The notes beneath the pieces were generated by a model. The model ran no database searches. It saw only the letters and a list, made by a program, of their open reading frames with translations, and was not told where the DNA came from. From assembly GCF_001642955.1 (NCBI RefSeq), contig NZ_LWSK01000007.1:1-64000 (forward strand): 64,000 bases of DNA. The letters are read 5' to 3'. Positions 23,370 through 44,754 of this stretch are shown here, in pieces. A program made the translations under genes and the position numbers. Numbering within the stretch: the stretch's first letter is position 1; every line of letters starts with the position of its first letter. The stretch is from Rubripirellula obstinata. Its GTDB lineage: Bacteria; Planctomycetota; Planctomycetia; Pirellulales; Pirellulaceae.

Positions 23370-24251
23370 TCACGCATCCGAGAACACATCACAAAACGGA
23401 CGCAGGTATCGACGCTGCTCGGACCAATCGGTGATCGCGAAAGTCACGTGTGAGAATGCTCCGGCGAAGTCACCTTCGAGTGCCTCGCGGAAATCCGACG
23501 CCGTTTGGTGCGGGTCGTTACCAAACACACCGCAGCCCCAAGCACCCAATACGAGTGACTCGTACTCATACGCTCGGGCGATCGCCAGGACACGGTGGAT
23601 CCTCCCGCGAAGCATTCTCGCGGAATCCGTTCGTCCAATCGCTGGAGCGTACGGTGCCGCACACGTCAGAAAACTGAGCAACCAAGGTTGGTCGCATTCC
23701 ATCCCGGCGTCGTTTCGGAAAACGGGAACGTCCGGAGACAAGATGGCCCAATCACTCGACGCAGCCGGATCGTTCTCGCGATGGAATTCATACATCGGAT
23801 CGCCAAACAACGTCGCGTACAACGCACTCGACCGACAAAGCGTCTCCTCCTGTGCCGTCGCGCCCCGCAGAAACCCACCACCCGGCTCGACACCGTTGGC
23901 AAAGTTGAGTGCCAACGGACGAAGACCACCCGCGATCAAAGCACTCGCCGCCGCCAAGGTCGTTTGATTCACGACCGTCACCAGCGTCTCGTCCAACAAC
24001 TGCCTATCATGATCCGGCAACGAAGCATCCGGTGGAATAGACACCTTCGCAACTTCAGCCGCTTTGATCTCGGCCGACCAATTCACCAGCCCGTGGTCAC
24101 TCAGGTATTCCCCGTTGTCGATAGCTTCGAGAGCCGATCGCCCGAGCGATTCAGCAATCTCGTACCGGATCTCGAGCACACGCCGATTCCGACGAGCCAA
24201 ATCATCCGAATCCGTGCATGGGCTGCACTTCAACAACGATCCACTATTCAT
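23370..24251 (-). CDS. Microbial-type poly(ADP-ribose) glycohydrolase (TIGR02452 family)
   Basis: A 293-aa protein with the microbial PARG signature: NFANGVEPGGGFLRGATAQEETLCRSS, that is GGG-x6-QEE, then LYATLFGDPMYEF and a conserved VLGAWGCGVFGNDP near the C-terminus. These macrodomain-fold enzymes cleave ADP-ribose polymers or mono-ADP-ribose adducts. The ATG at 24251 overlaps the GIY-YIG stop by 8 bp; the frame is open upstream but would run far into that gene. Its place at the end of the defence-like operon suggests that ADP-ribose, NAD or reversal of ADP-ribosylation matters to the system (inference). Confidence 0.88.
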   Translation of the reverse strand: MNSGSLLKCSPCTDSDDLARRNRRVLEIRYEIAESLGRSALEAIDNGEYLSDHGLVNWSAEIKAAEVAKVSIPPDASLPDHDRQLLDETLVTVVNQTTLAAASALIAGGLRPLALNFANGVEPGGGFLRGATAQEETLCRSSALYATLFGDPMYEFHRENDPAASSDWAILSPDVPVFRNDAGMECDQPWLLSFLTCAAPYAPAIGRTDSARMLRGRIHRVLAIARAYEYESLVLGAWGCGVFGNDPHQTASDFREALEGDFAGAFSHVTFAITDWSEQRRYLRPFCDVFSDA

Positions 24252-25149
24252 CGACTTCACTGGGAAGTTGCGACTGTCTCCAATCGCGATAGGTTTGTCT
24301 GGTGTCGGCGGTCTTCCAAAGGCCGGGACCGTTGGAGTTGCCTGCAGCGACGATGGCCGCACCGGCACTGGGACTAGCCAAGTAGACGTCCTCGGCGAAG
24401 AGTAATAGGCCCTGTCCAGAAACTTCGACCAGCTTTTTCTCGTCGACCAGCTGCTGACGAAGCTTTCGATAGCTCGTCCAGCTTGCTCTTGGTTCAAGTG
24501 TGGCTGTCGAACCTTTCAGCACGACAAATTCGCCGTCCACCTCTTTCGCTGTCGCTTTTGCCTCGCCGGAAGCGAACTCAAAAAGCGGTGATTCGTCATC
24601 ACCAAGTGGTTCGCTGGAATCCGGTCGATTGACTGTGGGCTTCGGTTTCAAAAAGGAGAATCCGATCACAGGAAGAGTCAATTCAATGTGTTCGAGAAAA
24701 CCTTCCATGTCGGCCAAGTCAGCTTCGGGCAGATGCGTCGGGGCTGGAGCCGTGCTGTTATGAATCTTCGCCCGACCGGCAGCGTATCCCAACGCGATCA
24801 ACCGACTCTCGAGGTAACGAACATGGGCTTTGGTGAGATTCAAGTCCTTGCTGATCACGCAAACACAGCGAGTCCAGAAGTCCTTTGATTCGTCTTTGTT
24901 GTGCTTCACCAAACGCGTCATCACGTTGTCACCCTCACCGATGTAAACGATTTCATTCATCGGGTTCTCGGGATCCGGACCGGCCAGGATGTAGATGCCT
25001 GTTCGGGTCACCTCTTCACGTTTGGCAAGATCAGCCAAACGGCTACGCGGCGCGACAAGCATCTTGCCCGACCAGTTCATCACTTCGGCTGTGAACAGCC
25101 CCGACGGGTCACCGTCGGGAAAAAAGAGGCGAATGGATCGTCCGTTCAT
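24244..25149 (-). CDS. GIY-YIG nuclease family protein with C-terminal DUF4357-like domain
   Basis: A 301-aa protein. GIYILAGPD...EIVYIGEGDNVMTRLVKHNKD (about residues 52-90) is a complete GIY-YIG motif with the downstream Arg, and the glutamate-bearing helix is VRYLESRLIALGYAAGRAKIHN. The C-terminal third (ATAKEVDGEFVVLKGSTA, then SYRKLRQQLVDEKKLVE and SPSAGAAIVAAGNSNGP) looks like DUF4357. Family members nick or cut DNA, often in defence loci. It lies 36 bp after the SNF2-like helicase gene and overlaps the PARG gene, so it is part of the operon. Confidence 0.87.
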   Translation of the reverse strand: MNGRSIRLFFPDGDPSGLFTAEVMNWSGKMLVAPRSRLADLAKREEVTRTGIYILAGPDPENPMNEIVYIGEGDNVMTRLVKHNKDESKDFWTRCVCVISKDLNLTKAHVRYLESRLIALGYAAGRAKIHNSTAPAPTHLPEADLADMEGFLEHIELTLPVIGFSFLKPKPTVNRPDSSEPLGDDESPLFEFASGEAKATAKEVDGEFVVLKGSTATLEPRASWTSYRKLRQQLVDEKKLVEVSGQGLLLFAEDVYLASPSAGAAIVAAGNSNGPGLWKTADTRQTYRDWRQSQLPSEVDE

Positions 25150-25185
25150 TTTGAATCTTTCAACGGTGCTAATTGAGTTCGGTGT

Positions 25186-28020
25186 TTAAATCGTGGAGTC
25201 AGTGCCCAAGCTGGTCGCCGATTCGGCTTCCAGTCGGAACGCTAGCTCTTGGGCAGCAATCAGGGGAAATGGAATTCGCTCGGAAAGCTTGTCCGTGCTT
25301 CGAGCATCGACTCGGTATTCCTCTCCCATGACGACGTTGAACCAACGCTCGCGATCCATCACCACGCGATACATTTTCTCATCTTGTGTCTCACCGATAT
25401 AGGGGATGAACACTTGGATGGATTGACCAACGCGTTCGGCCTTCGCACCAATACGATCAACTCGCCCAGTTCGTTGTTCAAGATTGCTGGGGTTCCAGCA
25501 CAGGTCGTGATGAATAATGTGCCGGCAGTTTAGATGCAGGTCGACTCCCTCGGACATCACACTGCTGGCAACAAGAATCTCGGGATAGAACGGAGTATTG
25601 AACGTCAGCATCAACCGCTGCCTCGTCTCGCTTCGCGTTCGACCGTTGACCAATCGCACGTTGGGGAGGAGTTGTTCCGCCGTATCACCTTGAAGCTCGT
25701 CATCATCATATTCTGACGCTGAGTCGACTCCGAAGTGAGCCCCGGTTTGGATACGCTTCACCGCGTTGATGTAGGCATCTCGCTGGTCTGTGCCGCAACG
25801 CTCGACCAAGAACGTGAAGAACTGCTTTACGACGGTTCCGAATGCTAATCCGGATTCATCGGTTGCGTTAAACGTCGCTTGCATCAACTGATCTGGTTCA
25901 CTGTCTTCAGCAAGTGGAAAGAATCGCACCAGAAATGATGGTGTTCGCAGGTTGCGTCGAATGATTTCGACCAACGCGACTTCGTGCGCTCTTAAGCTCG
26001 GATATTTGGTCAGCAATTGTAGAGTCTCGCGATCGCAGGCACGCCGAAGCGGACCGTCGTCGTCGAAGAAACGCTTTCCGATCCGCGACAACTCGGCTGC
26101 CGCTTCATCCGTCGAGCACGACAATTTGTTGGCACCAAGTCGGAGGATCTCATCGCCTACCGCATTTGAGATGCGTCGGCGCAGCGTTCGCCCCGTTTGG
26201 ACGTAATGACAAAAGACGACCACTTTCTCACCTCGCTTCCAGATATCGACGGATCGTGCGACGGTGGCGTCGACCTTTGGGTGCGCCAATGAACCGGTGT
26301 CGCTTGGTGCTATCAGGCCATCGAGTTTGTTCAGGTACCAATCTGTTTGCTTGGTATCGCTAATATCAGTGTCACTATCGTCATCGTCGTCGATCGACTT
26401 CTCACCGCTTCCCATTCGTGTGTGCAAGAACGCTTCGTAGCTGGACGATAGACCCTCCGCAAACAGGGGACGCGATTCGGGTTGAGCTGACGACGCTCGA
26501 CATGCCAACAAGAACGGCAACAATGCTTCGCCGGTAACGCTCAGTCCTTGTTCTTTCACAGGTCGTTCGGTTTCATCATCCGATTTCAACGAGATGGCTG
26601 CACCAACCCGACGTTCGCGCCGCGGCAAATCCTTCTCGCCCGGCAATTCCCGTGATTTCAAATGGCGGATCACCCATGGTTGCAGAAAACGCTCCGCCTC
26701 CCGCAAGGATTGCTTCGCTCGATCAAAACAGACAACGACATCTTCAGCGGCTCCACTCAAGCCGTTTGCGTTTCTTGCCGCGGGCCACCAATCCTGGGCG
26801 TCTTCGTAGGACTTACCCTCGACCCGCAAATCGTCACGCGTTAACCGCCCCCAAGCGTGATCGAGACACAACGCTGCTTCTTGTGCCCGATCGAGACTTT
26901 GCCGCAACGACTGTCGTGCTTCTGCAAAGGCGTCCAATCCATCCGACGGAGCCGACTTGCCTGTCCAATGAATTCCTTGGAAGCGATCGAGCACACTACA
27001 CAACTCACCATGCCCAAGCTGAAACGGTGTCGCCGTCAAGAACAGCATCCGCTCAAACACACCAGACAAAGCTCCTTGCGAGATCGCTTCGGCATCCGCC
27101 AGAGAATCTTCCGATCGAAAGAGCTTTGCAAGTCTCGTGTCGGCATTCTTCAGGTGGTGAGCTTCGTCTAAGATCAACAACGGTAACCGCTGACGGAATC
27201 TTACGAGACAATCTAGCCAGACTTCGCGTAGCTGTTCCTTGATTGCATGCCGCGCCGCCACCAGTTTTGCATCAAAGTGCTTGGTGCGACGCTGCGGAAT
27301 GTCTTGCAGTGCATCGAACACCGCCGATGTATCGAGTTGCGGCAGTAATTTTGCAATCGCCTCGGGCACCGGATCATCGTCCGCGCCGGTGATATCCTTG
27401 ATCAGCGGCAGCCAATTGCTGGGCGGCGTCGCGAGCAGCTTGTTCCAAATGCCCTCGTCTTTGCGTGTGAGGTCCTTCTTTTGAAGCAGGTCGCCGAGGA
27501 ACCGACCCAATGCTCGCTTCAAGCCGCTCGTGTTTCTTCGTCGATGCAGGCTACGCTGGATCAGAGCCAACATTACCCAAGGGTCATTCAATCCGCGACT
27601 CATCGCGCCGTGCGTCATGAAGATGATCGAGCAGCGTCGGTCCTTCGGGTCGTCCAAGAGTTTCAGGAAATCGACCGCCTTCTCCGCCGTCTTGAACCGA
27701 ATGCGTTTCGCGATCTTGTTGGGCAGGCAACGCTCGCAAAACAAACCGAGATCCTGCGGCCATTTGTCTTTCAAAGTGGACGGCACCATCACGACAACCG
27801 GCCGGCCGCCTCGGTTCGACAACGCGACCGAGACGGCAACGGAGATCGCGACGAAAGTTTTACCCATGCCCACTTCGTCGGCCAGGATGACGCCCGGCTG
27901 ATCGGCTAGACGACGCAAGATCGCCGCGGCCGTCTTGGACTGACGGGATGCGTCGGCCTTGGAAATCCTGCCGGTCACGTGCAGGTTGATTTCAGAATTT
28001 AACGAGTACGAGAGACTCAT
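25186..28020 (-). CDS. SNF2-like DEAH helicase / translocase of the defence-like operon
   Basis: A 944-aa protein with a Q-rich start and Walker A DEVGMGKT (residues 48-55 region), DEAH box LLILDEAHHLKN (DEAH 285-288) and a C-terminal helicase core with VASSVMSEGVDLHLNC and QRTGRVDRIGA (motif VI). The QRTGR-DR-G signature and the whole layout fit SNF2/RapA-like dsDNA translocases. Its ATG overlaps the stop of the phospholipase-D gene (ATGA at 28017). A large insertion (about residues 400-620) between the two lobes is not recognised. It is likely the motor of the defence complex (inference). Confidence 0.86.
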   Translation of the reverse strand: MSLSYSLNSEINLHVTGRISKADASRQSKTAAAILRRLADQPGVILADEVGMGKTFVAISVAVSVALSNRGGRPVVVMVPSTLKDKWPQDLGLFCERCLPNKIAKRIRFKTAEKAVDFLKLLDDPKDRRCSIIFMTHGAMSRGLNDPWVMLALIQRSLHRRRNTSGLKRALGRFLGDLLQKKDLTRKDEGIWNKLLATPPSNWLPLIKDITGADDDPVPEAIAKLLPQLDTSAVFDALQDIPQRRTKHFDAKLVAARHAIKEQLREVWLDCLVRFRQRLPLLILDEAHHLKNADTRLAKLFRSEDSLADAEAISQGALSGVFERMLFLTATPFQLGHGELCSVLDRFQGIHWTGKSAPSDGLDAFAEARQSLRQSLDRAQEAALCLDHAWGRLTRDDLRVEGKSYEDAQDWWPAARNANGLSGAAEDVVVCFDRAKQSLREAERFLQPWVIRHLKSRELPGEKDLPRRERRVGAAISLKSDDETERPVKEQGLSVTGEALLPFLLACRASSAQPESRPLFAEGLSSSYEAFLHTRMGSGEKSIDDDDDSDTDISDTKQTDWYLNKLDGLIAPSDTGSLAHPKVDATVARSVDIWKRGEKVVVFCHYVQTGRTLRRRISNAVGDEILRLGANKLSCSTDEAAAELSRIGKRFFDDDGPLRRACDRETLQLLTKYPSLRAHEVALVEIIRRNLRTPSFLVRFFPLAEDSEPDQLMQATFNATDESGLAFGTVVKQFFTFLVERCGTDQRDAYINAVKRIQTGAHFGVDSASEYDDDELQGDTAEQLLPNVRLVNGRTRSETRQRLMLTFNTPFYPEILVASSVMSEGVDLHLNCRHIIHHDLCWNPSNLEQRTGRVDRIGAKAERVGQSIQVFIPYIGETQDEKMYRVVMDRERWFNVVMGEEYRVDARSTDKLSERIPFPLIAAQELAFRLEAESATSLGTDSTI

Positions 28021-30107
28021 GCTGTCACCTCATCGAACACCGAAGCGACGTAAGCTTGTAGATTGGCCGGCGCGTTGGTTCCTCCATCAGCCTCAATCAG
28101 AGTTCGCAATTTCCCGCAAAGCTCCTGCACTTCGCTGCGGTGGACTGCCACGTCGACACATCCCTCGCACGCGACGACGTTCGCTCGCGACAGCTCCAGA
28201 GTCAGCTCGGCGATCAAGAACGCGGATTCAGTCGGCGAGGTTGCTTCGCGAGCAATCGCCTCGGCGAGAGCCATGACGCCAACCGGGCCGTGCAATCGCC
28301 AATGGAGCGTTTCGATCGTTGCGGCGGGACGCTCAACTCGCTCCCGCATCCGAGTCAGTGCCCACGACAACCGTCGCGTGCGTTGCAACAAGAAACCGCT
28401 GGTGTCGACCCGTTTGTGCGGATCAATTGCCGTGACAACTTCATCGTGATTGGCTTTCGATTTCCTGGACAGGTAGTCCGCCATCACGCGATGCAGCGGT
28501 CGCGATGACCCAAGCAAATCCATCAACACACTAAGCGGCAAATCTTTCAGTTCATCCGGTGGCGGCAACGATTCTGGTGAAGCCACGTTGACGGGCCACC
28601 AAGCGGTGCCGGCTTGATCGCCCAGCCGCACCTCGAAACCACTCGGTGGTCGCGTTTTCGTCCAAGGCAGCGTCACCTTCGCGGGTGACCCTGCCGCTTT
28701 CCACCGTTGGCAGTCGAACCACGCCTCTTCAGTTCCTTCGATCGACAGGCTAAACGCTTCACTGCGATTACCCACGAATTCCAGCGAGACGACGCCATTG
28801 TCACTGGCACTATTGCCGTCACTTGCATCGAGCGAGTAAACCGCATCGCCAAAGAATCCTGGCAACGCAAGTTGTTCCAGAGCATCCGCGTCTTCTTCGT
28901 TCGGCGGAGGCTGCCAAGTCACGTCCGCAGCGTCAACCACCTCGCTTTTCGGAAACGTTGCCTCGACAGCTTTGAATAGCTTTTCGTCCCGTTTGCTGTC
29001 GAGCACATAAACCAGGTTGGCTTCCAAGTTCGATCGTTTTCCAATGCCCATGCCGGCACTGGTGAAATTGCTCGACCCGATTTGATAAGCCGCGTAACGA
29101 TCGTCTTGCAACCAAATGCCCTTGGCATGAAGTGGTCGAGAATCTGGAGCAGTGACTCTGGCAAACTCGACAACAGCACTTTGCCGAGGTGTTCGACGCA
29201 ACGATTCGGGGGCTTGCAGCACCCATCGCGAATGCCCCAGTTCTTCCCATCCAACACATTGTTCACCAGCAACGTGATAACCGACGGTGACTTCACCGCG
29301 ACTGCGAAGCAATTGCCAGATTCGATCAACCGGTGTGTTCTTCGATTCCGGCGGATCAAAAAATGGACTGACGATGTCCGCCGACTTCGGACCGACGCCG
29401 GCCGGCCAGATCTCTTCCAGTTGATCGAACCCGGAATCGCCAACGTCACCCGCTTTGCTCGCTGGTTCGACGAACAGCGTCTTTACCTGCACCGCTGGCC
29501 GCTTGCGATCGGTTTCGCGCGTTCCCCACCCGGCACAATCGCTCTCAACTCGATCAATCAGCGTATTCCAACGCAGTGCAGCCGGCGTCGTTGTTGAGCT
29601 GTAACGAACAACTCGCCGCAAGAAGCTTGCTGTCTCAAGCAAGCATTCAATCGGCGAGTCACTGCCCGCATGAAAATCGAGGACGCCGAACACTTCCAAG
29701 TTCCGTCGATAGCCGTCTTCCGTCAGGTTCGCCGACCCGATCATCAAGCGAACGTGGTTCGACCAAACCAACAAGCTGACCTTGGCATGCTGAATCCCTG
29801 GCAAACGTGCCGGCAGCAAGTCCCAACGCAGACTACGCGACCCGCGACAATGATGAGCGTCGACCAATACCGACGCGCACTGCAATCGCGCCAGCTTATC
29901 TTCGCGTTCGATCAAATACGCCGGACCGTCGTCGGTCGGATTGGTTTCTAATCCGAGGAAGCTCGCCAAGCATTCCTCTTCAAAGAACGCCGCGTCAAAC
30001 GTGAACGACGTTGCAAGCACGCCGATTGGATCGCCCGCGTTTTCCGGTGGAACCCAAGCGTCCAACAGTTTGCCGAAACCTTCCCGTGATTTCCGACGCT
30101 TAGCCAA
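28017..30107 (-). CDS. Phospholipase-D-family protein with two HxK motifs
   Basis: The 696-aa protein has two PLD half-sites: QHAKVSLLVWSNHVRLMIGSANLT (H107, K109, N127) and LHAKGIWLQDDRYAAYQIGSSNFT (H327, K329), enough for one active site made of both halves. PLD-fold enzymes in defence systems (for example DISARM DrmC or DpdK) are thought to cut nucleic acid. The C-terminal 250 residues are unrecognised. Stop and start codons overlap with the genes on both sides (4 bp and 8 bp), so the operon is tightly coupled. Confidence 0.86.
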   Translation of the reverse strand: MAKRRKSREGFGKLLDAWVPPENAGDPIGVLATSFTFDAAFFEEECLASFLGLETNPTDDGPAYLIEREDKLARLQCASVLVDAHHCRGSRSLRWDLLPARLPGIQHAKVSLLVWSNHVRLMIGSANLTEDGYRRNLEVFGVLDFHAGSDSPIECLLETASFLRRVVRYSSTTTPAALRWNTLIDRVESDCAGWGTRETDRKRPAVQVKTLFVEPASKAGDVGDSGFDQLEEIWPAGVGPKSADIVSPFFDPPESKNTPVDRIWQLLRSRGEVTVGYHVAGEQCVGWEELGHSRWVLQAPESLRRTPRQSAVVEFARVTAPDSRPLHAKGIWLQDDRYAAYQIGSSNFTSAGMGIGKRSNLEANLVYVLDSKRDEKLFKAVEATFPKSEVVDAADVTWQPPPNEEDADALEQLALPGFFGDAVYSLDASDGNSASDNGVVSLEFVGNRSEAFSLSIEGTEEAWFDCQRWKAAGSPAKVTLPWTKTRPPSGFEVRLGDQAGTAWWPVNVASPESLPPPDELKDLPLSVLMDLLGSSRPLHRVMADYLSRKSKANHDEVVTAIDPHKRVDTSGFLLQRTRRLSWALTRMRERVERPAATIETLHWRLHGPVGVMALAEAIAREATSPTESAFLIAELTLELSRANVVACEGCVDVAVHRSEVQELCGKLRTLIEADGGTNAPANLQAYVASVFDEVTA

Positions 30108-31443
30108 CTCCCACCTCGCCGGAAATCAAATTCAGGTCGCTCGCAAACGACCACAACGAATGCGTTCGATAAGCATGCACGTACTCGGATGCTGGTCGCG
30201 GATTGTAATCGCGGATGTAACCTGGCCGGATCAGGTAGGAACCATCATCGAAGCGATCGAACCATGGCGCTTTACCGGCGGGCGGTTTGTCACGTTGGAC
30301 CTTTGTGTGAAACGCCAACAACTGGTCGGCCCACAACGCGGGAGTGGCCGAATCAGCGAACGGATCGAACGAGCGAGTGAACCGATCGACCAAGCCCAAT
30401 GGAGCAAGGGCCTCGACAACGCTTGGATAAACCCCAGCAGTTTTCGTCGCTGCCTCCTTCACCGCGTCTAATTCGGTAAATTCGCCCGCCTTCACCCGCA
30501 CTTGCTGCTCCACCATGTATTTCAAGCAAGCATCGAAAGCACTTTGCAGATAGCGAGCGAACTGCTCGTAGCAGGAGATCGCATGAAGCAGATCACGAAG
30601 CGGCTCGCTCGCACGCGGCATCAACCATTGGTGGAATCGCCGCTCCGAAGGCCAGTCCGACTCACGCTCCCTTGCCCAAACCTCTTGCCCCGCACCCGAC
30701 GTCAACGCATCGAAGATCTCACCCCGGTAACCATCAACCATCTTGCCAGTATCGGAGGACGCGATCGCGGCACGAATTGCCTCGGACTCCTGCGGTCCCG
30801 CAGCGTAGATCCCAAAGTGGTCAACAAAGAACTTACCCCAGGACTTCCGCGCCGTCGCACCCGCCACCAGACCGTCCCGGATTCCTTCACGCAATCGTTC
30901 GCGATGATTGCGGCCCGGCCCACCGCCGCTGCCCAAAAAGCCCTCCAGTTCTTGATCCGATTCCCATGCCGACAAAATCGAGAACCCGGCATCACCGAGC
31001 CGCCCCGCTTGCTCGACACCGATCTCGCGTGCCAACGCACGATAGATCCCATGGAATCCAAACGTCCGCGGCCCCTTCAAGTAGCCACGCGCTGACATAG
31101 GAATACCCTCGGCGCGCAACTTGTCCGCTTTATCGCGCCCCGGCAAACCGCGCAGTAAAGACTTGTCCTTGGTCTCCCGAGCCAAGCCTTCAACCACGTA
31201 CCACTCGAACACCTGCCACGGCTCACTCACTCCGTCCTCGGCAACGTGCTCTTCATCAAACGTGCTGCACAGCCAAAGCGACGCCGCAATCACCGTCAAG
31301 AACCTCGGATGTTGCTGCCGTTCCCGCACTCCCGGCACCATCCGTGACGCTAGCGAATCCGCAATCGGGTAGATCCCCAGCGGATCAATCGACCCTTCCG
31401 CCGATTCCGCCGGATCAGCTTCGCTCAACATCGGCATCAACAT
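30100..31443 (-). CDS. Unrecognised 447-aa protein of the defence-like operon
   Basis: I do not recognise this family. The start (DPLGIYPIADSLASRMVPGVRERQQHPRFLTVIAASLWLC, after a low-complexity MLMPMLSEADPAESAEGS) and the rest are mostly helical, with a glycine-rich GSGGGPGRNHRERLREGIRDGLV and no catalytic motif or membrane segment. It overlaps the RelE-UvrD stop by 7 bp and the PLD gene by 8 bp, so it is an integral part of the operon. Size and position beside a PLD gene recall uncharacterised proteins in similar loci, but homology was not established. It may be a target-recognition or assembly subunit. Confidence 0.72.
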   Translation of the reverse strand: MLMPMLSEADPAESAEGSIDPLGIYPIADSLASRMVPGVRERQQHPRFLTVIAASLWLCSTFDEEHVAEDGVSEPWQVFEWYVVEGLARETKDKSLLRGLPGRDKADKLRAEGIPMSARGYLKGPRTFGFHGIYRALAREIGVEQAGRLGDAGFSILSAWESDQELEGFLGSGGGPGRNHRERLREGIRDGLVAGATARKSWGKFFVDHFGIYAAGPQESEAIRAAIASSDTGKMVDGYRGEIFDALTSGAGQEVWARERESDWPSERRFHQWLMPRASEPLRDLLHAISCYEQFARYLQSAFDACLKYMVEQQVRVKAGEFTELDAVKEAATKTAGVYPSVVEALAPLGLVDRFTRSFDPFADSATPALWADQLLAFHTKVQRDKPPAGKAPWFDRFDDGSYLIRPGYIRDYNPRPASEYVHAYRTHSLWSFASDLNLISGEVGVG

Positions 31444-33551
31444 GATTCACCACCGGTTAAGAACTGAGAGTTCGCGAAGCCACCGACCGTGCTCACATAC
31501 AGTTGGTCCCTTGCGCGTGTCGCGGCAACATAAAGCAGGTTCTGTTCAGCAGCGATGTGGCGATCGCGTGCTCGCTGGTCCTCGTCTCGCCCTCGAAACT
31601 TCGTCGGAAAGACCGCATCGGCCAGTCCCGCGATGATGACGCATCGGAACTCAAGCCCTTTGACTCGATGCATCGTCGCCAATTGCACTCCGCTTCCGAC
31701 GGAGGTGTCGCCATCAAGCACGGTGAACTCTACACCCTCTTTCTTCAATCCTGATTTGAGTTTTTTCAACAGCCAACCTGCTCGGACAACGATTGCAATT
31801 TCTTCCGGCGGAAATTCGTCCTTGAGCGAAAGCACGAGCTCGGCAATCGCGTTAGATTCGGATTGCTGGTCATCGTGTTCGAGCAGAACAGGTTCTGGAC
31901 CGCTGAATAGAGAATGAGTCGAAATTTCGGACCACGAAGAATCACATAGGTCCGCAGTGGTCAACGCACTGCTTCGTCCGGTCGCCCAACTGCGAATCTG
32001 TTCGGTCGTCCGATAGTTGATCTGCAAGCGATGAATTCGTTCCGAAATATGAATGTCACCGTCGGCAAGTTGCGTGGGTTCGTGATAAATTCTCTGCCGA
32101 GGATCGGCAACGATGAACAGATCGTCGGCAGCCGGTCGCACCAATGACCGGATGAATCGCCAATCGCTTGCGGTGAAGTCCTGGCCCTCGTCGACAATGA
32201 CGTGTCGATAGGTTGGCGACGCGGCGGTAGCGGACAGATTGCTTGCGGTCGTAGTGACACCGACCCAACTCAGCTTTCCGCTCAAGCGAAGCGCCTCGTC
32301 AAAATTCTCAAACGCTTTCCAGACGCCGGCTTTCTCACGTCGTGACAACGATGGCGTCCGCCCGACACGCGACATTTGCAGGTATTCGTCTCTGGTGGTG
32401 ACGCCTCGGATGGCGTGCGTGTAGAACCACTCATCACGCAGAACATCCGTTTCTAGTTTGGTGGGATTGTCGATCGCAACTTGATCCCATGCGAGCGAAA
32501 TGTCGTCGTCGGATGCGACTTGAACCGGACCGGAAGTTCGCAGCCATGACATCGCGTGCTCGTGGATGTGTTGAACTTCGATGCGTTCGTACTCATCGCC
32601 ACAAAACGTCCGTAGTACCGACCGCACATTTTCTGCGAGGTTTTTTGTAAAAGTCGTGAAAAGAACTCGCTCGTCGGGCGAGAGTTTCAAGGCGAGCTGT
32701 CGTGCCCGGTGCATCGCAACGATAGTTTTTCCGGTTCCCGCACCACCCAGAACTAACGTCGGCCCGGCGAACGACTGCTGAGTCATCTGACGTTGGTGAG
32801 GATGCAGGAACACTCGCCATTGTTCCAGCGGTGCAGAAAGAACACGATCCAATTCATCGTCACTATCGACTCTGCGAAAACGTCTAGACGACTGATTGCT
32901 CGCCAGTGCTCGATCTTCTTCAGCAATCTCGTCGAGTGACGATTTCTGTTCCTTCTCTTCGAGCAACAAGCCGACATACTCTTTGACGCTCTCGATCGAC
33001 TCGCCCTCGGCAAGCCACACGAGCGATTCAAACGCCTCGGCCGGCAACACGTTCTGTAGCTGCGTGAGCTGTTCCTTTGATTGCAGTTGCCGAACCGCCG
33101 GCAGCAAGACGGGGGGAATTCCGAACGAGAGGAAAGTCGCGTCATCATGAGAAAACAGTGCGTTTTCATTGGCAGACGCCGTCGCCGCTTGGGCGACCGC
33201 CTGCTGGACTTGTTCGACATTCAAAATTTGCAGTGATTGAGTCTCCGGATGGACCTCGAACGTGCGGTTCCTGGCCCAATCCATCGCTTCGTCGTGGTTG
33301 TCGACCCAAACCAGAACGTAAGTGTTGCCCGAATCAGGGTGCAGCACGACGGCCCGGTACTTTTGATCAATCCGAACGGTGCGAACGCGATCGTCCGCCA
33401 TGTTGTGGATCTTCTCGTAGTTGATCGCCGCCGATTTTGGATCCGCTCTAAACTTTTTGGCAAACTCTTGAACCTTCTTTCGTTGCGACTTCGGCAGTCG
33501 CGCCAGAGCATCCATGAATTCGTTGCTGATGGCCAATCGCGGAACACTCAT
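31437..33551 (-). CDS. RelE/ParE-like domain fused to a UvrD-family helicase
   Basis: In the 704-aa product, residues 1-95 look like a RelE/ParE-type toxin fold (FMDALARLPKSQRKKVQEFAKKF, then DDRVRTVRIDQKYRAVVL and YVLVWVDNHDEAMDWA). After a linker comes a superfamily-1 helicase with Walker A GGAGTGKT (269-276), motif II VIVDEGQDFT, and motifs QINYRTTEQI and MHRVKGLEFRCVIIAGL. The RelE-like part lacks an obvious antitoxin gene nearby. Overlaps of 4 and 7 bp with both neighbours show tight coupling. The toxin-fold domain may bind RNA or ribosomes, or serve as an interaction module. Confidence 0.85.
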   Translation of the reverse strand: MSVPRLAISNEFMDALARLPKSQRKKVQEFAKKFRADPKSAAINYEKIHNMADDRVRTVRIDQKYRAVVLHPDSGNTYVLVWVDNHDEAMDWARNRTFEVHPETQSLQILNVEQVQQAVAQAATASANENALFSHDDATFLSFGIPPVLLPAVRQLQSKEQLTQLQNVLPAEAFESLVWLAEGESIESVKEYVGLLLEEKEQKSSLDEIAEEDRALASNQSSRRFRRVDSDDELDRVLSAPLEQWRVFLHPHQRQMTQQSFAGPTLVLGGAGTGKTIVAMHRARQLALKLSPDERVLFTTFTKNLAENVRSVLRTFCGDEYERIEVQHIHEHAMSWLRTSGPVQVASDDDISLAWDQVAIDNPTKLETDVLRDEWFYTHAIRGVTTRDEYLQMSRVGRTPSLSRREKAGVWKAFENFDEALRLSGKLSWVGVTTTASNLSATAASPTYRHVIVDEGQDFTASDWRFIRSLVRPAADDLFIVADPRQRIYHEPTQLADGDIHISERIHRLQINYRTTEQIRSWATGRSSALTTADLCDSSWSEISTHSLFSGPEPVLLEHDDQQSESNAIAELVLSLKDEFPPEEIAIVVRAGWLLKKLKSGLKKEGVEFTVLDGDTSVGSGVQLATMHRVKGLEFRCVIIAGLADAVFPTKFRGRDEDQRARDRHIAAEQNLLYVAATRARDQLYVSTVGGFANSQFLTGGESC

Positions 33552-36500
33552 GCCGTGCCTGCCTCCTTCAGTGCAGATTGAATTGCCTTCGCATCAGCGG
33601 CAACATCTTTACTGACAACAATCGTCCAGCTACGTGACTTGAACTGCTCCGCTGAACCTTCATCACCCTTGCGGAAATAGGCAACCGATTTGTCGAGCCA
33701 CGCCAACTCGCACTCGGCAATCGTGACGCCGTCTTCATCGTCCAATGGGTGCCCCGGTTCGGGGACCGGGATTTTTTCTTCGGCGAGTTGAAGCACCAAC
33801 TTGCGGACGTCGCCGCTAACTAGATCGAGAACCTCTTCGTAGTCAGCGGAGAGCTTGGTTGTGTGTTTCGCGATCGAATCGGTCGTGGATTTTGATAAAG
33901 ATCCATTGGTCTGAGGATCTTTAGCAAGATCCACTACCTCAGAAACCGAACCCAAAGCCGCAGTCAATTCTGCGTTCTCATCCAGCGATCTTGCAAACTC
34001 TTTCCCCACCAGCAATCGGCCAAGCTTTTTCAGGTGACGGCGCATCGCACCGCTATCATCCAAATCAACCCGTGTGATTTCCAACACGTTGTATCCCTTG
34101 CTTCGTAACCACGATCGGATCTCGTTATCCTTGGCCGCAGTCGCCGCGTTGCCGTGGATGTGGTTGCTCATGCCATCGAGATAGATGCAAATCCCCATTT
34201 CGTCAGGGTCATCGGGATCCGGATCAAAAAAGACATCGGGAGTCGTGCTGCTCAAATTCGGACTTGGCCGAAACTCATGCCGAAATCGAATCTGTTGTTG
34301 AAACGAGCCGGTTGCAAAGCCTGCCGCTGACAACAAATGCTTCAATTTGGCCTCGGCATCGTTGACTTCGCCCGCCGGCGCGACGGGGTTGTTGTCCGGC
34401 GACGGTTGTAGGGATGGAATGGGGTGCTCTTCGACAAGTTGGTTACCCGCTCGCTCGAAGAACTCCAACCCTGCGTGACGATCGAGATAGCGGTGGTAGT
34501 ACGCATTACGAAACGTTTGCAGACAGTGATTGCAGGAACTTCCACAATCCGATGGGCAGCCCGCCAACATCTCCGCCGCCGTCGAGACGATGCGTGGAAA
34601 GTTTTCAAGCAATTGAGCCAGCAAGCCTGAACCGCCCGGCATCGGATCCCACAGGCTGCCATCGACCTCATCACGATCAACATGGCCAACAACAAGCACC
34701 TGCAAGTCATCCAAATGCATGTCCAACACGGACGCCGCCGCTTGACGAATGGATTCAAGGATTGTGTAAGCGGTTGATTGATCCTTAACGCCCACCATCG
34801 TGATCGAGTCCGCGACCACGTCGGCATAGAAGCCAACATTGACCGGCTCCTGCCCGCACCACTCGGTGTGCTTGTCGCGGAAGTTTTGGATCTGGCGAAC
34901 CGAGGAGAGCGGAGACACGCTCTGCCCGCAGATTTGGCAAACCGGGTATCCCATTTCCGGCGGCGTTCGATCCACCAGCGAAGACGCACCCACATTCACC
35001 ATGCGGTAGTGAACGCCCCGCCGGAAATGCATTGGGCTGCCGCCCCAAGCAAACGCTTGGCCGCCGTTGTGCCGTCCCTGTTCGCGCCCGTACGTCGCTA
35101 CGGATAATTGAAATCGGTTCTCTTCCTCGTCCGAAATCTGGGACATGTGAACCAAGTCCACGTCGCAAACAGGAATGGCCATTAACTCGATATCGCTCAG
35201 GCTGCCCGCGGCGCTGCTGCGGTCACTTTCGATAATGGCTTCGCGATCGACGTTCACCGCAAACACGGGTGTATCGACTTCGTCCATGTCAGCTTCGCGG
35301 TGGAATCGACGCGCAACAAAGCGATGTCCGTTCGCGTAGATCAAATTCCCTGGCACGTACTCGCGGAGTGCCATCGACGCGGCCCGCGGCAAATTGAAAT
35401 CCATCGCCCCCATTTGCCAACGCGGCACTTCCGCCATCCCAACGATCGCGCCGCCATCTAATCCATAGCCCGGCAAAAAACCTTCCTGCGACAGAACGCT
35501 GAAAGTGACCGTGTCGTCAACGCCATCGGCATCGCCACGACGACGACGCCCCATGCCTTTGAGCTGTTTGACGAGTCGATCGCAACGTTTGAAGTGCGCT
35601 TCGTCGTCATAGCTGAGCGTGCCCTCGTCGTCACGCACCCGATTCAAACGGCGAATTTCACGAATCGCCCATTGCAGCCGTTTGCGCAGCCGACCGATTA
35701 CGCCATCCAGATTGTTCGCCACTTCGTCGATGTGCCTAGCGATCTCGTCAGCCGTCGTTACGTCGGCGTCCTCGTCCGGCCAACCATCCCGAAACGCTCG
35801 ACCAACGTACTGCAACAAATCATCCCGATGTGATGCGATTAAATCCTGCAGCGGCTGAACGTTGAACGGTTGGCTGCGCAGTTGTCCCGATGCCGTGAAC
35901 AGGTAATGCGTGATGCGCGACGGCAGCGTTTCCTTCAACGTATCGTGAATCAATTCTCGAGCCGACTCGGGCAAACCAGACGCTGGACGGGCTAATTGAT
36001 TCAGTCGCGTGATCACCGTGGCCGCGACGTGTTTGGCAACCAAGACATTATTTCGCAAGTTGAACGCCGGCGGGTCGACCCTTCCGCCAAGCATTCGCAT
36101 CGGATCGTTGAAGTACGACCGGTCGTGCGATGCCGGCCGGCAATAAGTGATGTTCACCGCCATCCGGTGACGACGTCCAGCACGCCCGGCACGCTGCCAA
36201 TAGTTGGCCGGTAACGGCGGAACATTGCGAAGCAAAACCGAGTCCAAAGCCCCGATGTCGACACCAAGTTCCAAAGTGGGCGTGCAAACCAATGTGTTGA
36301 CTCGATCGCCGCTGCCTTTGAACCAGTTTTCAATCTTCTCACGATGCGCCTGGGGAACCATCGCCGTATGCTCTTCCGGGCGTAGCATCGCGTAGCGCTG
36401 GTCAAGCACCTGCAAGTCGTAGTTGTCAGGATCTTCGCCCACAAATTCCAAAGTGCCATCGCATTGCCAGGCCAAACACAGACTGCCCGGCGTCCGTCGG

Positions 36501-39388
36501 GTCACCCGGCGGCGACAACGATTGCAGCAGTAATAGCCGTGGTTCTCGGTGATGCGAATTTTGTCTGAATCAATTTGATAGACCCCACTGCATCGCGGCA
36601 AAGCCCTCCCTTTGTTACTGCGCAACGTCACCGGCACGAGCAACGCCTTCGTCGGATCCGTGCAGAAAGCCCACAATTCTTCGATGAAGTCGCCTACATC
36701 GTCTGGCGGCACACCCCACTTACGGACAATGGACCGGATCAAGTTGTTTCGCTGTGACATCCAAGCCGTCACCCGTTCTCGCTCGTCAGCACCGCTGAGC
36801 TCGAGCTTCATTCCCTTCGGACCGGGCAGGATCGGCAAATAACCGCGTTGGATTTCCAGATCGCCGTCATGCCAATAACGCGAGAAGATTTCGTTATGTG
36901 AATCTCGCAACAAACGTCGCCGACGCAGCATATCCAACAGCGTTTCAACTCCGATCTTCAGCTCGTCCGCCGGCATCGCCAATCGGTTCGCCCAAGACTG
37001 AATAAAAGCGTCCGAAGTGCTCAGCCCCTCATACGACACCGTGATTCGCCCCCACGGCTCCAAGCCCTTGCGTTGATTCGATGCCATCGTGATCTCACGC
37101 AGCATCTGAATCCGCAGGAAGTAAGCTCGCTCGTCCGCATGCGATCCGCCGCTGCCCTCTTTCGGTGCTACCCGCCAAACTTCGGGGATCAACGCTCGCG
37201 AATAAGAATCATCCCGATCAAGCCCGTCGCTCATCTTCAGCGCAACATCGCCGATCGACACCGCGTTGCCCGCGATCGCTTCGGCCATCAAACCCCGCAA
37301 ACGAAAACGCCGGGCATGGTCCTTCATCCAGCCGGCTTGGAAAGCCGCGTCTTGTCGATTATCCGCAAACAACAGCAAGCGTTTCCGCTCTGCGTGATGC
37401 ACCATGTCCTGCGCAAGAACATGCACGTCGGCAACTGAGGTCGCCCGGACTTCGCGAATCGGTTCACGATAACGTCGCCCATTGGCGCTGCCCAAAGCCC
37501 GGCAAGAAAAACAGCTTGTCAGATTGCCGGGATGCGAATCATTGCTTTTAACAGCATACAGCCGAACCATCTCCGACATCGTCCCACAGGCTTGGCAACG
37601 CGACTTCGCATTCGGATGCCCCGCACCACAACCGCGGCAAAAGTACAACGCCGTGGCTCGCGCATGATTGTCGAGGCCTTGACCATCTTGATTGACGATC
37701 GTGTCCAGCAAAACCACACGAACGCCTCCGTGCTTCTCTTCTTGCGGAGCCCAAAAGTGGTCCTCGTCTTCGCCCATCTCTCCGCCACCCGGCGTGTTGC
37801 CGGTGTACTGGAAATCCTTCAAGTGAGTGGTCAGGTAATGTTGACCACAGGTATTGCAGGAAAACAGTCGCGGACGCCACCACTTCTCGGCGCTCTCTCC
37901 GCGTTCCAGTTCCTCGGCGCTGCTAAGCGAAAGCTTCGGTTCGCTTCCCGTTTCAAACGAGACCACGCCACCCGTGATACCACGCAAGAAACCGTGCACG
38001 ACCGGTCGCATCAAGGGCCGGCCGTCCTTCAGCGATGCCGCCCCCAGCGTCAGGTAGCACAACAATTCTTCTTCACCGACTTTGCGACCGACCGTGGTCT
38101 TCAATTCACTCAGCAAGGTTGACAGCTCGCGAGGCCCCATCAACGAAGTGCGGATCTGCTTGGCAATTTCGTTTTGGCGAAGATCATCGAACAACGCTTC
38201 CTGCCAATCTTCACCACTGATCTCACGCTTCGTCAGCCGCCGGTAAACCGACGTGACTTGCTCTTCCGGATTGAGCGACTCGACCGCGGTCAGTGTGTCG
38301 GCCAGCAGTTTGGAAAGTTCGCGAGGTCGCTCGGGACGATAGCTTGTGCTGGCCCATTCGTCGTTTTGGTATTCTTCGTTGACCGTCACGACCGATGCCG
38401 CATCGACGCCAAAGAAACGCGAAGCAAATTTTCGGGCCGCGTCCGGTTCCGTTTCGTCCACGATCGTGGCGGAAGTTGCAATGCAAGTCGTGTGCGAAGC
38501 GTCCTTGCCACAGAACGCTCGCAGTCGTCGGATCAGGCAAGCGGTCTCGGCCCCCTGAATCCCGGTGAACGTGTGAGCCTCGTCAAAGACCAGAAAGTCA
38601 AGCATCGCGTTGTCAAACAGTTCGACGTCACGCTGTCGAGTCAGCAGCAGTTCCAACTGTTTGATATTCGTCAGCAGGATGCGTGGTTGGCTGCCGCTGG
38701 TCCGCATCATCTCTCGCGAGCAAACCTCCTCGACCGGGTGAACCGAATCGCTCAGTCCCGCCTCGCGAGTTTCGCGGATGCGGAACTCATAATCGCCGCG
38801 GCTCTCACCCACCTCCATTCGATGGCCGTGAACCTCCCGCTCGTTTTCGGGCGTCTTGCCGACGTACATTCCAAATGTGATGCCACTGCCGGCCAACAGC
38901 CCACGCATCCGGTCCAATTGATCTTCGGCCAGCGCGTTCATCGGATAGACGATCACCGCTGTCACGCCCGCCGGTGCGTTCTGGTCACGCAGTTCCAAAC
39001 AGCGACTGATGATCGGAAACAAAAAGCATTCTGTCTTTCCCGATCCCGTTCCCGTGCTGACCAGTGTCGGGCTGCCATCCACCACCGATCGGAAGGCCCG
39101 TTCCTGGTGCCCGTATGCTGCCGTGAAACCGCTCGGCACGATCCGTTTCATGTGCGGATGAAAAACCCCGTCGTCAATCAACTGATCAACCGATGCGCCT
39201 TGGCGAAACCCACGAGACAAACTGACGTAGGGACCGCGCAGCAGCGGTGATGTTCGGACGGTATCGAGCCGCAACTGATCCCGCATTTGGTCGTACAAAC
39301 GAGGATCAGCCAGCGCGTAGCTGGTCAATTGATAACGAAGGAAGCTCCGAACAATCTTTTCGGTATAAACAATCGGATTCAGCGGCAT
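33548..39388 (-). CDS. Giant DEAH helicase with DUF1998-like C-terminus and putative PD-(D/E)XK tail
   Basis: Starting at the ATG at 39388, the product has 1,946 aa. Walker A STGTGSGKT (111-119), FDEAHTFTG (DEAH at 269-272) and the motif V-VI part LELGVDIGALDSVLLRNVPP/YWQRAGRAGRR make a complete SF2 helicase. Cys clusters (NTCGQHY, FCRGCGAG...CQACG, CCNRCRRR, CQICGQSV) and a late CPSDCGSSCNHCLQTFRN block match DUF1998/MZB-type proteins. After that comes TPDVFFDPDPDDPDEMGICIYLDG...DNEIRSWLRSKGYNVLEI, resembling a Vsr/DUF559-type nuclease. The layout recalls Druantia DruE, or a fusion of DISARM DrmA and DrmB. It is the first gene of the operon. Confidence 0.86.
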   Translation of the reverse strand: MPLNPIVYTEKIVRSFLRYQLTSYALADPRLYDQMRDQLRLDTVRTSPLLRGPYVSLSRGFRQGASVDQLIDDGVFHPHMKRIVPSGFTAAYGHQERAFRSVVDGSPTLVSTGTGSGKTECFLFPIISRCLELRDQNAPAGVTAVIVYPMNALAEDQLDRMRGLLAGSGITFGMYVGKTPENEREVHGHRMEVGESRGDYEFRIRETREAGLSDSVHPVEEVCSREMMRTSGSQPRILLTNIKQLELLLTRQRDVELFDNAMLDFLVFDEAHTFTGIQGAETACLIRRLRAFCGKDASHTTCIATSATIVDETEPDAARKFASRFFGVDAASVVTVNEEYQNDEWASTSYRPERPRELSKLLADTLTAVESLNPEEQVTSVYRRLTKREISGEDWQEALFDDLRQNEIAKQIRTSLMGPRELSTLLSELKTTVGRKVGEEELLCYLTLGAASLKDGRPLMRPVVHGFLRGITGGVVSFETGSEPKLSLSSAEELERGESAEKWWRPRLFSCNTCGQHYLTTHLKDFQYTGNTPGGGEMGEDEDHFWAPQEEKHGGVRVVLLDTIVNQDGQGLDNHARATALYFCRGCGAGHPNAKSRCQACGTMSEMVRLYAVKSNDSHPGNLTSCFSCRALGSANGRRYREPIREVRATSVADVHVLAQDMVHHAERKRLLLFADNRQDAAFQAGWMKDHARRFRLRGLMAEAIAGNAVSIGDVALKMSDGLDRDDSYSRALIPEVWRVAPKEGSGGSHADERAYFLRIQMLREITMASNQRKGLEPWGRITVSYEGLSTSDAFIQSWANRLAMPADELKIGVETLLDMLRRRRLLRDSHNEIFSRYWHDGDLEIQRGYLPILPGPKGMKLELSGADERERVTAWMSQRNNLIRSIVRKWGVPPDDVGDFIEELWAFCTDPTKALLVPVTLRSNKGRALPRCSGVYQIDSDKIRITENHGYYCCNRCRRRVTRRTPGSLCLAWQCDGTLEFVGEDPDNYDLQVLDQRYAMLRPEEHTAMVPQAHREKIENWFKGSGDRVNTLVCTPTLELGVDIGALDSVLLRNVPPLPANYWQRAGRAGRRHRMAVNITYCRPASHDRSYFNDPMRMLGGRVDPPAFNLRNNVLVAKHVAATVITRLNQLARPASGLPESARELIHDTLKETLPSRITHYLFTASGQLRSQPFNVQPLQDLIASHRDDLLQYVGRAFRDGWPDEDADVTTADEIARHIDEVANNLDGVIGRLRKRLQWAIREIRRLNRVRDDEGTLSYDDEAHFKRCDRLVKQLKGMGRRRRGDADGVDDTVTFSVLSQEGFLPGYGLDGGAIVGMAEVPRWQMGAMDFNLPRAASMALREYVPGNLIYANGHRFVARRFHREADMDEVDTPVFAVNVDREAIIESDRSSAAGSLSDIELMAIPVCDVDLVHMSQISDEEENRFQLSVATYGREQGRHNGGQAFAWGGSPMHFRRGVHYRMVNVGASSLVDRTPPEMGYPVCQICGQSVSPLSSVRQIQNFRDKHTEWCGQEPVNVGFYADVVADSITMVGVKDQSTAYTILESIRQAAASVLDMHLDDLQVLVVGHVDRDEVDGSLWDPMPGGSGLLAQLLENFPRIVSTAAEMLAGCPSDCGSSCNHCLQTFRNAYYHRYLDRHAGLEFFERAGNQLVEEHPIPSLQPSPDNNPVAPAGEVNDAEAKLKHLLSAAGFATGSFQQQIRFRHEFRPSPNLSSTTPDVFFDPDPDDPDEMGICIYLDGMSNHIHGNAATAAKDNEIRSWLRSKGYNVLEITRVDLDDSGAMRRHLKKLGRLLVGKEFARSLDENAELTAALGSVSEVVDLAKDPQTNGSLSKSTTDSIAKHTTKLSADYEEVLDLVSGDVRKLVLQLAEEKIPVPEPGHPLDDEDGVTIAECELAWLDKSVAYFRKGDEGSAEQFKSRSWTIVVSKDVAADAKAIQSALKEAGTA

Positions 39389-39487
39389 CGGTGCCCCATC
39401 GTGAATGGTCGCTATCGGCGGGTGGGTGGACGAGCGACCATCATAAAGGTTCAGCCCTCGGTTGACCTTCCCCCTCAAAACTGATCA

Positions 39488-39516
39488 ACCTCCACCAAAC
39501 GAAGTTTGGGGGAGGT
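39488..39516. repeat. Hairpin repeat upstream of the giant helicase gene
   Basis: ACCTCCACCAAAC (39488-39500) and GTTTGGGGGAGGT (39504-39516) form a 12-of-13-bp stem around GAA. The GGGGGAGGTCGAGCGACGA sequence that follows resembles the element at 39667. Confidence 0.65.
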
Positions 39517-39624
39517 CGAGCGACGACGTTCAGGAGTTTGCGAGGGAGGGGGCCGGATGCTTATTTTGTACGGTTGACGAACCAGCATGTCGGCCCCCTC
39601 CCGAACAAGGCTATCGCCTGTTCG

Positions 39625-39651
39625 ACCTCCCCCAGCTTCGCCGGGGGAGGT
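39625..39651. repeat. Perfect 9-bp hairpin, same family as the neighbours
   Basis: ACCTCCCCC (39625-39633) pairs with GGGGGAGGT (39643-39651) around a 9-nt AGCTTCGCC loop. It lies in the same cluster as the other GGGGAGG-rich hairpins. Confidence 0.65.
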
Positions 39652-39666
39652 AAACAAAAACCTCTG

Positions 39667-39704
39667 CCCGCGCAGCGGGAGGGGTCGAGCGACAGCGAGG
39701 GGGA
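39667..39704. repeat. 38-bp repeat, intergenic copy
   Basis: A 38-bp sequence starting CCCGCGCAGCGGGAGGGG contains the short hairpin CCCGC/GCGGG and the GAGCGACAGCGAGGGGGA tail. The identical 38 bases occur inverted inside the giant methyltransferase gene at 49841-49878. Confidence 0.8.
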
Positions 39705-39733
39705 CGGTTAGGACCATCGCCACAATAAGTGGC

Positions 39734-39797
39734 GTAGCGAAACTCGCCAAGAGTTTCGGCAACTCGACAAACCGAAAGTCTTGGCGACTTTCGCTAC
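39734..39797. repeat. Long REP-like inverted repeat (26-bp arms, 24 of 26 bp paired)
   Basis: The left arm (39734-39759) starts GTAGCGAAACTCGCC; the right arm (39772-39797) ends GGCGACTTTCGCTAC. Only two positions mismatch, with a 12-nt loop. It could also end transcription on either strand. It resembles intergenic repeats of Rhodopirellula genomes (recalled, not searched). Confidence 0.75.
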
Positions 39798-39947
39798 CAA
39801 TTTTCCCGCCACGAATTGTTCCGACGGTCGTTAGATAACGATATGGTTTCCACCACGACGCAACTTGCTAAGTTCTCTGGATAGTGGACCCCCACCGGCG
39901 ACATGTTGTCGTCGGTGCTTGTTTCTCAAGGATGTCTTCCTCGATCA

Positions 39948-40819: not shown

Positions 40820-40828
40820 TTCAAGTCG

Positions 40829-41767: not shown

Positions 41768-41783
41768 CAACCCGGAGAAAGAC

Positions 41784-42077: not shown

Positions 42078-42083
42078 TCAACG

Positions 42084-43777: not shown

Positions 43778-43810
43778 GGCTTTTAGTGGCTCTCTGGTCC
43801 ATTGATGCAA

Positions 43811-44680: not shown

Positions 44681-44693
44681 TGGAAAATCCCAC

Positions 44694-44723: not shown

Positions 44724-44754
44724 CGATTGTCACACAAATGGATTCAGCGGTCGA

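Follow-up and report, generated by a model that had tools for sequence, protein, structure and literature searches.

Among the closest known systems to the locus described here is ARMADA type II, which a 2025 preprint (PMC12458937) presents as ArmA (a BrxHII-like helicase), ArmB (a PglX-like methyltransferase), ArmC (a YprA-like helicase), and ArmD (RelE-GajB). The E. coli ATCC 8739 locus, which we take as the reference, has the published type II order A-B-C-D, and the preprint reports that the E. coli system protects without killing the cell and requires all four genes. Druantia type III (DruE-DruH) has a related giant YprA-like helicase, and in DISARM the DrmA helicase and the DUF1998 protein DrmB are encoded by separate genes, alongside the PLD protein DrmC. 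The ZacABC and PDC-M27ABC systems share a three-gene order of an uncharacterized protein, a PLD protein, and an SNF2 helicase, and in PDC-S14 the letter S denotes a single-gene candidate. PMC12988326 describes PDCs as candidates that were found by guilt-by-embedding and are mostly unvalidated. No description of the Zac system was found in the literature among the matches listed, and PDC-M27 is not named in three papers that mention PDC-S14.

The stretch of Rubripirellula obstinata DNA analyzed here (64,000 nucleotides, referred to as the window) contains a run of seven genes on the minus strand, preceded by further defense genes (Table 1). Among named genomes its nearest matches are Neorhodopirellula pilleata and Rhodopirellula europaea, which fits a planctomycete of the Pirellulaceae. 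We consider it very probable that this run is a composite defense array, in which an ARMADA core is followed by an independent module of genes 3-5, putatively for DNA restriction, and an accessory gene 6, with a PARG gene behind them.

Table 1. Features of the window, with positions counted from its first nucleotide
Feature	Position	Strand	Description
ArmA	52023..55307	minus	BrxHII/DrmD-like SNF2 helicase, 1094 aa; PADLOC DrmD 2e-193
ArmB	46060..51576	minus	PglX/DrmMI-like DNA methyltransferase, 1838 aa; NPPW at residue 1046
Slot	39389..46059		minus: 296, 125, 299, 163, and 412 (TPR) aa; plus: 215, 90, and 312 (CapP-like IrrE peptidase) aa
Gene 1 (assigned to ArmC)	33548..39388	minus	YprA-like DEAD/DEAH helicase that contains an MZB zinc-binding domain, 1946 aa
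Gene 2 (assigned to ArmD)	31437..33551	minus	GajB/UvrD-like helicase with a fused RelE-like N-terminus, 704 aa
Gene 3	30100..31443	minus	predicted all-helical protein, 447 aa; opens the putative free-standing three-gene module; Zac/PDC-M27-like A position
Gene 4	28017..30107	minus	PLD-type protein with two HxK...GSxN motifs; B position
Gene 5	25186..28020	minus	SNF2-like translocase, 944 aa; C position; PDC-M27C 1e-39, DrmD 2e-27, ZacC 5e-24
Gene 6	24244..25149	minus	GIY-YIG + DUF4357 protein, PADLOC PDC-S14, 301 aa
Gene 7	23370..24251	minus	microbial-type PARG (TIGR02452), 293 aa; GGG...EE motif present

The seven-gene run and the ARMADA core

All seven ORFs are intact on the minus strand, extending over 39478-33548, 33551-31437, 31443-30100, and 30107-28017 for genes 1-4 and over 28020-25186, 25149-24244, and 24497-23370 for genes 5-7. 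For gene 1, the ATG at 39388 is the preferred start, because the alignment with the N. pilleata ArmC (1944 aa) begins there; for gene 7, it is the ATG at 24251. With these starts, the gene pairs 1/2, 2/3, 3/4, 4/5, and 6/7 overlap by 4, 7, 8, 4, and 8 bp, and genes 5 and 6 are separated by 36 bp; the ORF coordinates thus bear out the initial annotation, which had described seven ORFs with five overlaps of 4-8 bp and one 36-bp gap. Overlaps this tight suggest that the genes are transcribed together, rather than that their products form a single complex. A scan for sigma-70-type promoters ahead of gene 1 found none. The DNA before ArmC at 39400-39900 is GC-rich and contains inverted repeats, and a palindrome-like motif at 39625-39649 occurs once in the window. 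Genes 3-6 share 77-79% amino-acid identity with their counterparts in Rhodopirellula europaea 6C, and fourfold sites (G, A, V, T, and P codons counted) differ by 59-64%, which argues that these are real genes under strong purifying selection; second codon positions differ by 9-13%.

Pfam assigns DEAD/Helicase_C/MZB to gene 1, UvrD to gene 2, PLD to gene 4, SNF2/Helicase_C to gene 5, and PARG to gene 7. The GIY-YIG match of gene 6 is weak (E 0.06), its DUF4357 match is clear (2e-10), and gene 3 receives no domain label. Five of the seven proteins (1, 2, 4, 5, and 6) have matches to anti-phage profiles of PADLOC with E values of 2e-14 or lower, which supports the defense character that had been proposed for the run; the array presumably has an anti-phage function. 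The PADLOC result for gene 3 is marginal (E 0.02), and no PADLOC profile matched gene 7.

ArmA and ArmB (55307-46060) stand upstream of the run with 6.7 kb of other genes between, and the guess that a methyltransferase might come from the adjacent block proved right, as ArmB matches the PADLOC profiles REase_MTase_IIG (E = 0) and DrmMI (2e-118) as well as Pfam Eco57I (3e-26). Each of the window's ArmA-D proteins best-matches its own counterpart in the E. coli locus, with 28% identity over 587 aa for ArmA, 23-29% in pieces for ArmB, 23-26% in pieces for ArmC, and 38% over 706 aa for ArmD; the identities of just 22-29% over partial length for ArmA, ArmB, and ArmC are counted against the ARMADA assignment. 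For gene 1, the score against E. coli ArmC (227 bits) exceeds that against DruE III (189 bits). Gene 2 has no match to a RelE model in Pfam, and its RelE-like label is taken from the alignment with E. coli ArmD, which is termed RelE-like in PMC12458937. The window has the type II order of A-B-C followed by a GajB-like helicase with a RelE-like N-terminus, all on one strand, and its BrxHII-like ArmA, NPPW-bearing PglX-like ArmB, YprA-like ArmC, and RelE-like/UvrD ArmD agree with the type II components as that preprint characterizes them. On sequence grounds, genes 1 and 2 are ArmC and ArmD, the last two genes of an ARMADA locus with the arrangement ArmA-ArmB-(inserted genes)-ArmC-ArmD. In type II, ArmC has an active Vsr-type nuclease at its C-terminus, with inactive domains behind it. 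By-eye reading of the alignment finds an LDG...H motif in the window's ArmC and a tail that it shares with E. coli ArmC; the structure model of this putative nuclease tail is poor (mean pLDDT 50), with no fold match reaching E 0.001. ArmD homologues (E 1e-40) occur in 23 of 391 genomes of the phylum and in 4 of 98 relatives, the genome itself being excluded.

The ArmC branch and the ArmB-ArmC interval

The ArmC proteins of the window, N. pilleata, G058, and G489 (a Vicinamibacterales MAG, locus L086) form a clade with SH-aLRT support of 100 in a 22-protein tree and again with 19 proteins, on a branch of 1.6-1.7 changes per column; these trees of YprA-like proteins are quick ones, calculated without bootstrap and carrying long-branch and composition warnings. 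The clade falls outside the type II rows, which comprise E. coli, Nostoc, Microvirga, and four genomes from the same phylum as the window; it is also outside archaeal A-B-C loci that we assigned to type I from the description in the PMC12458937 preprint. In the same quick trees, with their long-branch warnings, a constraint that unites the clade with type II is not rejected (cost of 0.12 log units, p-AU 0.50), and the joining of the clade with the type-I-like rows has a support of 5. These data suggest that the window's ArmC belongs to a clade that separated long ago and stands apart from the type II and type-I-like forms sampled. Related ArmC proteins (E <= 1e-100) occur in 10 of 396 genomes of the class, the window's own not counted, and in 7 of 149 genomes in a set around G489, with G489 and G488 included; the four named members of this ArmC group were placed in the tree, and the remaining ones were grouped by score. 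Locus L162 (G040) has the order ArmC-ArmD-ArmA-ArmB, with an ArmC that groups with the archaeal type-I-like rows and thus a RelE-UvrD ArmD outside type II.

The window also differs from type II in the 6,671 bp between the end of ArmB and the start of ArmC, here called the slot. Among the 12 loci of the window's ArmC group in which ArmB and ArmC are both at least partly visible, the slot measures 2,378 to 16,207 bp in 11 and 332 bp in G549. In contrast, ArmB and ArmC are spaced by -1 bp in E. coli, 2 bp in Microvirga, 630 bp in Nostoc, and -1 bp in Natrinema, and by about 3 bp, as read from the map, in the planctomycete type II locus G169. The slot may nevertheless not be unique to the window's clade, because two planctomycete loci of the type II clade, G114 and G226, show no ArmB match in the 4-6 kb ahead of ArmC. 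ArmD follows ArmC in 7 of the 12 loci (window, N. pilleata, G058, G787, G779, G575, and G549) and was not found after ArmC in 4 of the 11 judgeable ones (G784, G466, G847, and G489), the contig of G797 ending inside ArmC; the four-gene set is therefore not universal in this ArmC group.

The contents of the slot vary between loci. Those of N. pilleata and G058 hold a DRT3 reverse-transcriptase pair, with matches to Drt3a (1e-83) and Drt3b (1e-141) in the former and, in the latter, a match to Drt3a (3e-82) and a 629-aa gene that is 90% identical to the N. pilleata Drt3b; DRT3 is reported as an immune system (PMC13174585). A family of 757-764 aa with no assigned function recurs in N. pilleata, G058, and G787. 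In the window, the 163-aa slot protein (43319-43810, minus strand) adjoins the TPR protein and has a sub-threshold match to a Tse2-type ADP-ribosyltransferase (E 0.0012). Beside ArmC lies a divergent plus-strand cassette (39903-41767) that encodes the 215-aa and 90-aa proteins and the CapP-like IrrE peptidase; it is common to the window and G058 at 80-86% identity and is possibly a damage-responsive regulator of the array. On inspection by eye the 215-aa protein was taken for an acetyltransferase, which Pfam did not confirm.

Genes 3 to 7 and the readings of the run

Scanning genome contigs with a gene-3 profile returned 63 loci, which the record titles place in many phyla. Of the 62 loci in which 400 bp or more lie beyond gene 3, 60 have gene 4 next to it, and gene 5 occurs in 50 of the 53 loci in which 3 kb or more lie beyond gene 3. 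In whole genomes other than the window's own, gene 3 was detected in 5 of 98 relatives and in 9 of 391 genomes of the phylum; 12 of these loci were mapped, and genes 4 and 5 adjoin gene 3 or its match in 10 of them, with G001 having no intact gene-4 ORF and G370 gene 5 only in part. ARMADA genes lie in the flanks of four of the 63 loci (L081, L084, L086, and L100) at score limits of >150 bits for ArmD, >120 for ArmC, and >300 for ArmA or ArmB, the flanks spanning at most 10 kb, many being shorter, with at least 2.5 kb upstream in 50 of 63. Weaker ArmA-D matches, which were not counted, occur in L045, L055, L060, L065, L077, L080, L085, L088, L098, and L101. A search of plasmids and phages for gene 3 gave none at E 1e-5. 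The 63 loci argue that genes 3-5 are a free-standing operon of many phyla, independent of ARMADA.

In its gene order this operon resembles ZacABC and PDC-M27ABC, and genes 4 and 5 match the B and C profiles in the corresponding positions. Gene 4 (696 aa) matches ZacB (2e-14), PDC-M27B (1e-7), and DrmC (2e-5) in PADLOC, and its two HxK...GSxN half-sites are invariant in 11 of 11 aligned sequences. Gene 3, however, matches ZacA at the margin (E 0.021), and PDC-M27A is matched by 4 of 10 gene-3 homologues (best E 2e-4). The predicted structure of gene 3 is nearly all-helical (mean pLDDT 91); its comparison with solved structures gave no match at E <= 0.001 (best E 1.0), and a solved-structure profile search gave nothing credible. 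The C-terminal part (about 298-412) aligns with several chains at Z about 5-6, values of Z < 13 being common for helical models, and some of the matched stretches are presumably winged-helix domains, which we treat as a lead.

Gene 6 matches PDC-S14 over nearly its whole length (9e-113), here in an operon behind genes 3-5, unlike the single-gene candidate. Homologues, partial ones counted and own genome excluded, occur in 9 of 98 relatives for gene 6 and 9 of 59 for gene 7. Of the 63 gene-3 loci, L039 alone (R. europaea 6C, 77%) has gene 6 immediately behind gene 5, and its contig ends just after gene 6; among the 39 loci with at least 6.5 kb beyond gene 3, none has gene 6 downstream, and L071 has a 29% homologue upstream of gene 3. 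Homologues of 74-75% identity follow a PDC-M27 A-B-C operon in G003 (A 4e-18, ZacB 1e-18, C 6e-82) and dndB-dndC-dndD plus a 127-aa ORF in G034. Gene 6 thus appears to be an accessory gene, found beside unrelated systems too. Gene 7 matches TIGR02452 at 202.7 bits against a curated cut-off of 50, and solved PARGs at 9e-49. It is present in none of the 63 gene-3 loci, and of the gene-7 loci mapped (G027, G034, G003, and G017) G027 alone has a gene-6 remnant before gene 7; PARG lies ∼37 kb from gene 6 in G034 and >1 Mb from it in G003. It is probably a passenger.

The separation of ARMADA from the genes behind it is most directly seen in two relatives. N. pilleata Pla100 has ArmA, ArmB, ArmC, and ArmD at 98, 72, 96, and 95% identity to the window, but its gene 3 breaks off after 56 matching residues; behind it stand short remnants of genes 4 and 5 and, as read by eye, of the start of gene 6. 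In G058, of the same family, the four proteins are 90, 69, 89, and 72% identical, and no match to genes 3-7 is present in the mapped 44 kb. ArmA-D have therefore been maintained without genes 3-7. One could regard genes 1-6 as an extended ARMADA type whose PLD/SNF2 module is an effector arm lost secondarily in N. pilleata, which once carried genes 3-5 behind ArmD. ArmD and gene 3 do overlap by 7 bp, the order ArmC-ArmD-gene3-gene4-gene5 recurs in a distant Acidobacteria MAG (L084, with no ArmA/ArmB match in the stretch mapped), and genes 3-5 lie about 250 bp ahead of ArmA in L081 and L086, gene 5 being split in L086. Together with an ArmA-like gene (35% over 422 aa) at the gene-3 locus of G385, a YprA-like gene (28% over 364 aa) at that of G001, and the G362 locus described next, these cases make some link between ARMADA and genes 3-5 possible. 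We nonetheless find the extended type unlikely, as gene 3 is absent from 14 mapped ArmD-homologue loci (13 genomes) and from 10 mapped ArmC loci, excepting a fifteenth ArmD-homologue locus, that of G362, in which genes 3-5 lie ∼8 kb from an ArmD-like gene (30% over 427 aa) on the opposite strand. Moreover, 59 of the 63 gene-3 loci have no ARMADA gene at the set score limits, some with short flanks, and in R. europaea 6C the 10 kb upstream of genes 3-6 contain no ArmA-D match.

The initial annotation had read the run as one undescribed seven-gene anti-phage system, and the tight junctions across all seven ORFs lend themselves to this. Genes 1 and 2 go to ARMADA and the others are separable, no other mapped locus holds all seven, and the recurrence of genes 6 and 7 around gene 3 is as sparse as given above, so that this reading is already largely refuted and hardly tenable. 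The annotation had named scattering of the genes among relatives as evidence against itself, and scattering is largely what was found, with genes 3-5 outside ARMADA in most of the 63 loci, genes 6 and 7 mostly unlinked, and ArmC-ArmD without gene 3 in G058. We know of no published system containing all seven genes. A published system with this gene set, also named there as contrary evidence, exists in part, since genes 1 and 2 belong to ARMADA (PMC12458937).

A resemblance to DISARM and Druantia had been pointed out as well, and related profiles are indeed matched. If the run were a variant of either, gene 1 would be DruE, accompanied by DISARM-like PLD and SNF2 genes. PADLOC 2.0 names gene 1 DruE (9e-106), a label from 2023 that predates the ARMADA preprint, and matches gene 5 to DrmD behind PDC-M27C; NCBIfam gives DrmD for gene 5 (2e-32) and DrmC for gene 4 (3e-7), both far below cut-off (112.6 of 610 and 30.4 of 133 bits). 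However, there is no DruH for 17 window proteins among the PADLOC matches listed, a RelE-UvrD partner standing in its place, and four DruE III rows and gene 1 lie on opposite sides of a branch with SH-aLRT 100. Unlike DrmA/DrmB, the helicase and the MZB zinc-binding domain share one ORF, and gene 4, with its length and two HxK sites, is closer to ZacB than to DrmC. Such a variant is very improbable, and the composite array accounts for the run as the reading that we prefer.

Proposed working, meaning, and flanking genes

By analogy with related proteins, we infer that ArmA and ArmB serve self-marking or discrimination and ArmC and ArmD attack. ArmB with ArmA would mark self DNA or recognize unmarked DNA. 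ArmC would load on single-stranded parts of replicating phage DNA and then travel along it, its relative DruE being reported as a helicase-nuclease that loads on 3' single-stranded DNA (PMC13192584); the C-terminal nuclease-like region of ArmC would cut. ArmD would contribute another motor and perhaps a domain that cuts RNA. In the module of genes 3-5, gene 5 would move on DNA and deliver it to gene 4, and gene 3 would recognize or couple. Judging by PLD nucleases, the two HxK half-sites of gene 4 could form one complete PLD active site within a single chain, which would cut DNA. Gene 6 would add a nicking activity.

As judged from these comparisons of sequence, the new element is a divergent, slot-bearing ARMADA, and the rest of the array consists of known or candidate systems in a composite. 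A plausible reading of overlapping genes as one system is thereby corrected, ARMADA, which in the literature searched appears in one 2025 preprint and is mentioned in two later papers, gains a divergent branch, and an immune operon is seen to carry other immune genes inside. Tentatively, and with less confidence than doubt, we suggest that the window's ARMADA may belong to a third lineage (Planctomycetota, Acidobacteriota) that is built as a docking operon, in which entire foreign immune modules (the DRT3 pair, the Zac/PDC-M27-like PLD module, and the TPR/ADP-ribosyltransferase-like cassette) are taken up between ArmB and ArmC or behind ArmD and are then expressed together as layers around a single methylation-based self/non-self switch. 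Should the slot prove real and general, the genes in it would make a shortlist of new defense genes, such as the 757-764-aa family that N. pilleata, G058, and G787 share, and it would become testable whether nested systems are expressed jointly.

Several neighboring genes are also of note. Between ArmA and ArmB, a 23S_rRNA_IVP / bAvd-like protein (51611-52075, minus strand; PF05635, 7e-40) is 89% identical in G058 at the same place and has no match in the N. pilleata stretch. Directly upstream of ArmA is a KptA/Tpt1 RNA 2'-phosphotransferase (55418-56002, minus strand; PF01885, 4e-52), which is near ArmA in G787 too (73% over 139 aa). We take KptA/Tpt1, PARG, and the weak ADP-ribosyltransferase match to be three ADP-ribose-related genes in or beside the array. 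Below gene 7, a serine recombinase and two ParB/RepB-like proteins occupy 19347-22600 (minus strand), followed next by an HNH-repeat protein at 17766-19343. This recombinase/ParB-like block may mark a mobile element, and DNA resembling it (79%) lies ∼4 kb from genes 3-5 in G001 (L022:866-4817).
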